Both the position numbers and the translations under genes were made by a program. From Bacilli bacterium (GTDB lineage Bacteria > Bacillota_I > Bacilli_A > RF39 > UBA660): DNA of 35,857 bases. Positions 24,386 to 25,081 of the stretch are shown piece by piece (within the stretch, counting starts at the first letter, position 1; every line of letters begins with the position of its first letter). The notes beneath the pieces were generated by a model, which had not been told where the DNA came from, searched no databases, and worked only from the letters and a program-made list of their open reading frames with translations. The DNA is taken from the NCBI GenBank assembly GCA_016290195.1, contig JAEETF010000029.1, positions 1 to 35,857 on the forward strand, written 5' to 3'.

Positions 24386-24679
24386 TTATCCCACCACCTT
24401 TGGTACTTGTACTTCTCTTTCATTGTAATCATCACAGTTTTGTAATAATTCTTCAATTGGTACTGATTCTTCAGCCACATCTTCTCTTAATTCATATTCA
24501 AAATCATCTAGACAATGTGACATTGGTTCTACTTCTTTAATATTTGGTATTTCATTAATCAAATCAATATTTTTATCAATGATTTCAAATTCATCTAATA
24601 CCATTTTATTTTCTTCTTCTGTAAGCCCAATTAAAAGCTTATCTGCATAGTCATCTACCATTTCTTTTGTAAATTTCAT
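24386..24679 (-). CDS. gatC: Asp-tRNA(Asn)/Glu-tRNA(Gln) amidotransferase subunit GatC
   Basis: 97 aa directly upstream of gatA; IKEVEPMSHCLDDFEYELREDVAEES; SD aaaggagga. Confidence 0.9.
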   Translation of the reverse strand: MKFTKEMVDDYADKLLIGLTEEENKMVLDEFEIIDKNIDLINEIPNIKEVEPMSHCLDDFEYELREDVAEESVPIEELLQNCDDYNEREVQVPKVVG

Positions 24680-24703
24680 ACTATTCCTCCTTTATAACAA
24701 AAA

Positions 24704-24723
24704 ACAAGTCCCTTAGGACTTGT
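24704..24723 (-). terminator. Intrinsic terminator between tRNA-Asn and gatC
   Basis: Minus ACAAGTCC-TAAG-GGACTTGTTTTTTGTT, 8-bp stem and T-tract. Confidence 0.85.
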
Positions 24724-24733
24724 AATTATCTTA

Positions 24734-24809
24734 TGGCGCCTGATGTAGGACTCGAACCTACGACCTATCGGTTAACAGCCGAGTGCTCTACCGACTGAGC
24801 TAATCAAGC
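24734..24809 (-). tRNA. tRNA-Asn (GTT), CCA end encoded
   Basis: GCTTGAT/ATCAGGC acceptor, anticodon stem-loop CTCGG-CTGTTAA-CCGAT, T-arm GTAGG-TTCGAGT-CCTAC, G73. Confidence 0.95.
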
Positions 24810-24821
24810 ATATTATAATTA

Positions 24822-25046
24822 TTCGCCCTAATCATGGGACGAAATATTCCGCGGTGCCACCCAAATTGTCATCTTATGACCACTTATGGAACCTATAACG
24901 GGGTTTAACCGGTTTATCCTACTATTAATTTCAGTAAACAACTCCGTGGTGTTCTTCATATTAGCCACAATGTCAGTTCCCACCATCCTGACTCTCTATA
25001 AATAGAATCTAATATTACTTTTCCACATCGCAGTCTTTAAATGACT
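24822..25046 (-). ncRNA. T-box riboswitch leader, specifier GAAC (Asn AAC overlapping Glu GAA)
   Basis: T-box GGGTGGCACCGCGG at 24849-24862, 3' partner CGTCCC, stem I AGAGAG...ATGGTGGGAA, ATATTAG/CTAATAT and GTGG/CCAC flanking a specifier loop GAAGAACA. Confidence 0.95.
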
Positions 25047-25052
25047 GTTTTA

Positions 25053-25081
25053 AGTATATAACAACAGCCTTTAATTGTCAA
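25053..25081 (-). promoter_or_regulatory. Promoter of T-box / tRNA-Asn / gatCAB-aspS transcript
   Basis: TTGACA-N17-TATACT on minus strand. Confidence 0.88.

Follow-up and report, generated by a model that had tools for sequence, protein, structure and literature searches.

What does a T-box leader control when the first gene downstream of it encodes the very tRNA that it would sense? This question is raised by a minus-strand locus in contig JAEETF010000029.1 (35,857 nucleotides, the whole of which is called the window here), from the draft genome of a Bacilli bacterium (assembly GCA_016290195.1; GTDB lineage RF39, UBA660). A promoter is followed there by a T-box leader, tRNA-Asn(GUU), an intrinsic terminator (T2), gatC, gatA, gatB and aspS. 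A preliminary description had proposed that uncharged tRNA-Asn activates its own gene as well as these enzymes, in a positive feedback loop. Our comparison with related loci points elsewhere: this is quite probably a tRNA-Asn T-box switch whose regulated terminator has moved beyond the embedded tRNA-Asn gene, switching gatCAB-aspS only. The T-box, its specificity, the tRNA, a first hairpin (T1) without U-tract, T2 and a covarying long-range helix (strands c and d) can all be read from the sequence. The features of the locus are the following:

25081-25053, minus strand: sigma-70-type promoter, TTGACA-N17-TATACT (score 11/12)
25040-24832, minus strand: T-box leader RF00230 with stem I, specifier, stem III and antiterminator (143.2 bits, full-length)
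24953-24951, minus strand: specifier codon AAC (Asn), from the Rfam alignment (GAA-G-AAC-A)
24859-24856, minus strand: T-box bulge UGGC, complementary to the tRNA end GCCA (Rfam alignment and locus comparison)
24843-24836, minus strand: strand b, UUCGUCCC, the antiterminator 3' strand and 5' strand of hairpin T1
24843-24822, minus strand: hairpin T1 (UUCGUCC/GGGCGAA), seven pairs, no U-tract, not convincing as a terminator (T score 2.37)
24829-24815, minus strand: strand c, AGGGC-gaa-UAAUUAU, which would form the 5' side of the long-range helix and has its first half in common with T1
24809-24734, minus strand: tRNA-Asn(GUU) with encoded CCA
24729-24715, minus strand: strand d, AUAAUUA-caa-GUCCU, which would form the 3' side of the long-range helix and lies partly within the 5' half of T2
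24723-24704, minus strand: intrinsic terminator T2 (ACAAGUCC UAAG GGACUUGU), U-tract to about 24698; proposed regulated terminator
24679-24386, minus strand: gatC (TIGR00135, 4.9e-11)
24375-22927, minus strand: gatA (TIGR00132, 1.9e-129)
22927-21473, minus strand: gatB (NF004012, above cut-off)
21468-19723, minus strand: aspS, bacterial type (NF001750, above cut-off)

A T-box leader specific for tRNA-Asn

Judged by its covariance match and alignment, the leader is a complete T-box specific for tRNA-Asn, predicted to bind this tRNA and to respond to its charging. The match to RF00230 covers the full length and, at 143.2 bits (E 3e-32), exceeds the gathering score of 93; representative relatives score 112-152 bits; among those scanned, L100 and L103 gave no RF00230 match above cut-off. 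In the Rfam alignment the specifier position is occupied by AAC. This codon holds the specifier position in 68/68 related loci (non-redundant after duplicate removal, nearly all from uncultured Bacilli), where AAC comes after GAA plus 0-2 bases and the base preceding it is variable. This codon matches the GUU anticodon of the tRNA-Asn at the locus. The bulge of the window, UGGC, is the Watson-Crick complement of the tRNA-Asn end GCCA; over the loci, UGGC stands with GCCA in 36 and UGGU with GCCA, by wobble, in 28. The specifier loop of the window (24954-24951) reads GAAC, in which Glu and Asn codons overlap. Co-sensing of Glu, as in Clostridium acetobutylicum, is thus possible in the window but is not conserved, since most relatives carry UAAC.

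The layout given in the preliminary description was borne out on each of these points, namely the promoter, a complete leader with AAC in its specifier loop, a cognate tRNA-Asn encoded in cis that starts 12 nt past the post-antiterminator hairpin, and the genes gatC, gatA, gatB and aspS, all four with family matches. The arrangement of T-box and tRNA-Asn, for which a synteny survey had been suggested, recurs in the 68 loci. The claim that one promoter drives the whole unit also stands. Of the 66 homologous loci tested, 41 have a promoter of full score (12/12) in the region 5' of the T-box, and promoter scoring of the window and the loci found no convincing promoter in the stretches from T-box to tRNA and from tRNA to gatC. 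A separate tRNA promoter was rejected, as the TATAAT ahead of the tRNA has no -35 element (best score 9/12, and never above 9 over all loci). The tRNA-Asn at this locus is the sole one detected in the source draft genome, and none of the eight other T-box matches in that genome has tRNA genes after it.

Hairpin T1 and terminator T2

Two architectures are found among the relatives:

— In architecture A, the T-box has an ordinary U-tract terminator, which is followed by 1-5 tandem tRNA-Asn genes.

— In architecture B, to which the window belongs together with 35 further loci, T1 has no U-tract and is followed by one or two tRNA-Asn genes and then by T2.

In the window, the first hairpin after the T-box has no run of U, so that the mark of a canonical class I T-box, a U-tract terminator placed right after the T-box and reusing the antiterminator 3' strand, is missing; a strong intrinsic terminator, T2, instead separates tRNA-Asn from gatC. 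Past the first hairpin, the highest T score is 2.37 in the window, with means of 2.22 in group B and 4.98 in group A, whereas T2 averages 5.00 in group B. One B locus, L047, is borderline at T1 (U-tract score 3.75).

These values bear directly on the mechanism first proposed, in which T1 would be the regulated terminator and uncharged tRNA-Asn would turn on its own gene along with gatCAB-aspS. Partial conservation of the T1 hairpin speaks for it, as does architecture A, where a U-tract terminator occupies the place of T1 ahead of the tRNA array. We nevertheless hold this reading to be very unlikely: a U-tract is missing at T1 in the window and in nearly all 35 further B loci, the 3' strand of T1 covaries with T2 and not with T1, and the presence of T2 would be left unexplained. 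As a terminator, T1 was ruled out by its missing U-tract (2.37, where relatives that do have a terminator at this place average 4.98). As the tRNA-Asn of the window lies upstream of the only U-tract terminator, it should be made in both states. Activation of the tRNA's own gene is thus probably the wrong mechanism for the window. The feedback loop fares differently in the two architectures, being unsupported in the window, where the predicted long-range helix points to gatCAB-aspS only, and plausible in architecture A, with its terminator before the tRNA array.

A predicted long-range helix across the tRNA gene

In group B, strand c (the T1 3' strand and the bases following it) can pair with strand d (just before and within the T2 5' half), a pairing that makes a loop of the one or two tRNA genes in between. 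For the window, the predicted c:d helix would consist of AGGGC/GUCCU, an internal loop and UAAUUAU/AUAAUUA. The duplex energy of strands from the same locus averages -11.4 kcal/mol, compared with -10.3 when partners are permuted within genera, -8.0 when they are permuted among all loci and -4.4 when strand c is shuffled, and no permutation was as low (0/5000 within genus, 0/5000 overall). Loci of architecture A showed no clear excess (-7.9 versus -7.4 for shuffled strands).

Covariation was assessed on an alignment (A2) anchored on T1, with no reference to strand d; a general MAFFT alignment misplaced strand c. On A2, the core c:d pairs are 91.3% paired and show 15 two-sided changes, against 6.0 +/- 1.8 for shuffled strands (0/500), and registers slid along the strands reach at most 49% paired. 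When strand c is placed by its T1 match only, 161/175 core positions pair with strand d (149.4 +/- 2.0 when shuffled, with a maximum of 157), whereas 133/175 pair with its own T1 partner, strand b. Pairing of T2 is likewise conserved (94.2% paired); T1 is less well kept (78.9%), two of its pairs being broken in about half of the loci. One c:d pair passes through A-U, G-U and G-C steps within a single genus, g57, and locus L057 has lost T1 while keeping a c:d helix of 7+9 bp, that is, 16 long-range pairs. These shuffle tests leave relatedness in, for which the within-genus permutation partly corrects. The predicted c:d helix is thus supported by compensatory changes, being present in architecture B and absent from relatives with a terminator before the tRNA.

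Folding of the transcript up to just before strand e, the 3' half of T2, gave a mean c:d probability of 0.46 with strand b free and 0.97 with strand b sequestered over the 36 loci, and 0.36 with shuffled c.

A proposed relay of five strands

Five strands could form a chain in which each may pair with the next, namely a (GGGUGG), b (UUCGUCCC), c (AGGGC-gaa-UAAUUAU), d (AUAAUUA-caa-GUCCU) and e (GGACUUGU and the U-tract). The alternative helices would be a:b, the antiterminator; b:c, or T1; c:d, the long-range helix; and d:e, or T2. Only two combinations would use every switch strand free of conflict, a:b with c:d or b:c with d:e, and both covariation and predicted folding suggest that the terminator and antiterminator exclude each other through such a relay, a:b freeing c and c:d excluding d:e.

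With charged tRNA-Asn, T1 and T2 would both form and the transcript would stop after the tRNA, T1 being harmless because it has no U-tract. With uncharged tRNA-Asn, a:b would form and leave c free to pair with d across the tRNA, whereby T2 would be blocked and transcription would read through into gatC, gatA, gatB and aspS. In either state the tRNA-Asn would be transcribed, and the regulated part would be the enzymes making Asn-tRNA(Asn). The binding of tRNA, the dependence on charging, the order of folding and the readthrough at T2 are steps that we infer.

Several observations weigh against this relay. The probability of c:d in the window rises only from 0.48 to 1.00, and in L057, L063, L102 and L150 the helix is predicted even with strand b free, so that the switch may be weak or constitutive in such loci. 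Loci of the g75 type retain only 4-6 c:d pairs. The B loci come from metagenome-assembled genomes of related species, and their changes are therefore not fully independent. The folding energies used here exclude tRNA binding and transcription speed. Finally, some A relatives carry a terminator between tRNA and gatC without any c:d helix, and T2 could therefore partly be a constitutive setter of ratios.

The last point leads to another explanation, in which c:d would be a stem for pre-tRNA processing or insulation, T2 a constitutive partial terminator setting the ratio of tRNA to mRNA, and the T-box of little effect. That one or two tRNAs lie within the helix, and that those A relatives have a T2 without it, fits such a role. 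However, the covarying core of c:d lies inside the 5' half of T2, so that c:d excludes T2, as a processing stem need not, and a T-box with an AAC specifier is retained in every locus; we regard this explanation as unlikely. Still more improbable, to the point of being hardly credible, is cis-binding, in which the nascent tRNA domain would dock into the T-box of its own transcript as a timing or self-sensing device. Its anticodon and acceptor end match the leader, and it is tethered nearby. Yet T-boxes require a tRNA with a free 3' end, and at the time of decision the nascent tRNA would still bear the T2 trailer and lie within the helix.

Distribution among relatives

Pattern searches, which give lower bounds, retrieved a T-box followed by the anticodon loop of tRNA-Asn in 27 of 288 genomes of the same family, spread over nine genera, and a reversed control pattern gave 0 matches in the same 288 genomes. 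In two genera the pattern was found in 12/12 and 13/16 genomes. From these figures, and from the presence of AAC in 68/68 loci, the arrangement is not due to chance. A stricter pattern was found in 20/385 genomes, and a general tRNA pattern run over 84,980 species genomes yielded 71 loci, about 50 of them with tRNA-Asn, nearly all titled uncultured Bacilli. Matches in Patulibacter, Streptomyces, Acidobacteria, Treponema and others were dropped, no Rfam T-box being present where they were scanned.

At most loci whose downstream sequence is long enough, gatC and gatA come next, often with gatB and aspS as well. In 16/16 genomes checked, every tRNA-Asn gene found by pattern sits at a T-box locus.

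Three variants were seen besides. In genus g83 (L043, L044, L146, L147), a B leader with tRNA-Asn and T2 precedes asnS, not gatC. At L086:4325-5145 and L120:1044-1973, an array of 4-5 tRNA-Asn genes lies between two T-boxes, the second of which stands directly before gatC. In some A loci (L131, L040, L072, L035, L091, L101), a AGGTCGTAGGT-like stretch within the terminator between the array and the next gene looks like a decayed T-arm of tRNA-Asn; L035 has a pgi-like gene after its array.

Route to Asn-tRNA(Asn) in the source genome

Besides the bacterial-type AspRS of the operon, the source genome encodes a non-discriminating, archaeal-type AspRS adjoining hisS (G000:C59:11116-12408, L155; 487.9 bits, above cut-off), and thus has two AspRS. 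Neither AsnRS nor GlnRS was found above cut-off in this draft, which is 89% complete. Asn-tRNA(Asn) is therefore expected to come from AspRS and GatCAB, and the locus places a tRNA-Asn T-box before gatCAB and aspS in a genome of the indirect Asn-tRNA(Asn) type. Architecture A would make the detected supply of tRNA-Asn depend on a terminator opened by uncharged tRNA-Asn, a loop that architecture B would avoid.

Known systems and couplings in other lineages

T-boxes sense tRNA charging, and the leader resembles the transcriptional T-boxes of RF00230 in Bacillus and Clostridium in its stem I, specifier codon, stem III and antiterminator with UGGN bulge. It differs from the canonical form in that no terminator reuses strand b and ends in a U-tract; control would pass through two more strands to a terminator past the tRNA gene. 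In trp-type attenuators, alternative helices 1:2, 2:3 and 3:4 relay a signal to a distal terminator; here a tRNA-binding RNA would provide the input, and the loop of one helix would contain an entire tRNA gene. To our knowledge, the targets of T-boxes are taken to be protein genes.

A tRNA-Asn T-box over an AspRS-GatCAB operon was described in C. acetobutylicum (PMC4052509, PMC4206432; work of Saad 2012, 2013). As far as the available portions of these articles go, the two systems share the tRNA-Asn T-box ahead of the operon and a possible GAA/AAC overlap (GAAC in the window), but a tRNA gene within the leader, present here, is not described there. The lysK T-box of Bacillus cereus, partly responsive to tRNA-Asn charging, is associated with tRNA-Other, a tRNA-like RNA, and nothing in the accessible part of that article places a tRNA gene between the T-box and the structural gene (PMC2916919). 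In the open-licence literature, we found no report of T-boxes before tRNA genes or of a terminator relayed across a tRNA. The comparison suggests that the tRNA gene inside the leader and the predicted relay across it are new, the tRNA-Asn T-box over an AspRS-GatCAB operon being known.

The sensed tRNA is thus encoded inside the transcript of its own sensor, at loci holding every detected tRNA-Asn gene in the 16 genomes mentioned above. Close relatives would have opposite wirings: in the window the tRNA would lie outside the switch, in the sister form behind it. They could serve as a natural system for testing the balance that a cell strikes between the number of its tRNAs and its capacity to charge them. 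The locus also suggests a riboswitch that works from afar, with a folded tRNA domain in between. Such cases would escape database pipelines that cut leaders at a poly-U close by; TBDB, for instance, extends Rfam-derived leaders by 50 nt and then trims them to UUUUU (PMC7778990).

Similar couplings occur elsewhere. In Patescibacteria, at L105 (94.7 bits), L094 and L062, a T-box with specifier UAC is followed by a U-tract terminator and, directly after it, tRNA-Tyr, with tyrS 1-2.3 kb downstream; in Chloroflexi, the order at L076 and L115 is T-box (specifier CCG), terminator, tRNA-Pro(CGG), proC. Both tyrS and proC were named from the translated sequence, not from a family search, and apart from L105 these T-boxes score below the Rfam gathering score, with E-values of 1e-9 or better. 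Taken together, it seems fairly probable that a class of T-box leaders holding the gene of their own ligand, and relaying over five strands to a terminator past the tRNA, evolved in one family of Bacilli, beside a sister form whose only detected tRNA-Asn genes lie behind a T-box terminator opening only for uncharged tRNA-Asn, and that couplings for Tyr (Patescibacteria) and Pro (Chloroflexi) are independent.

At L089:2858-3236 (Nealsonbacteria), a T-box (75 bits, specifier perhaps CGA) and a terminator precede a tRNA without an anticodon call from ARAGORN, followed by a prfB-like gene.
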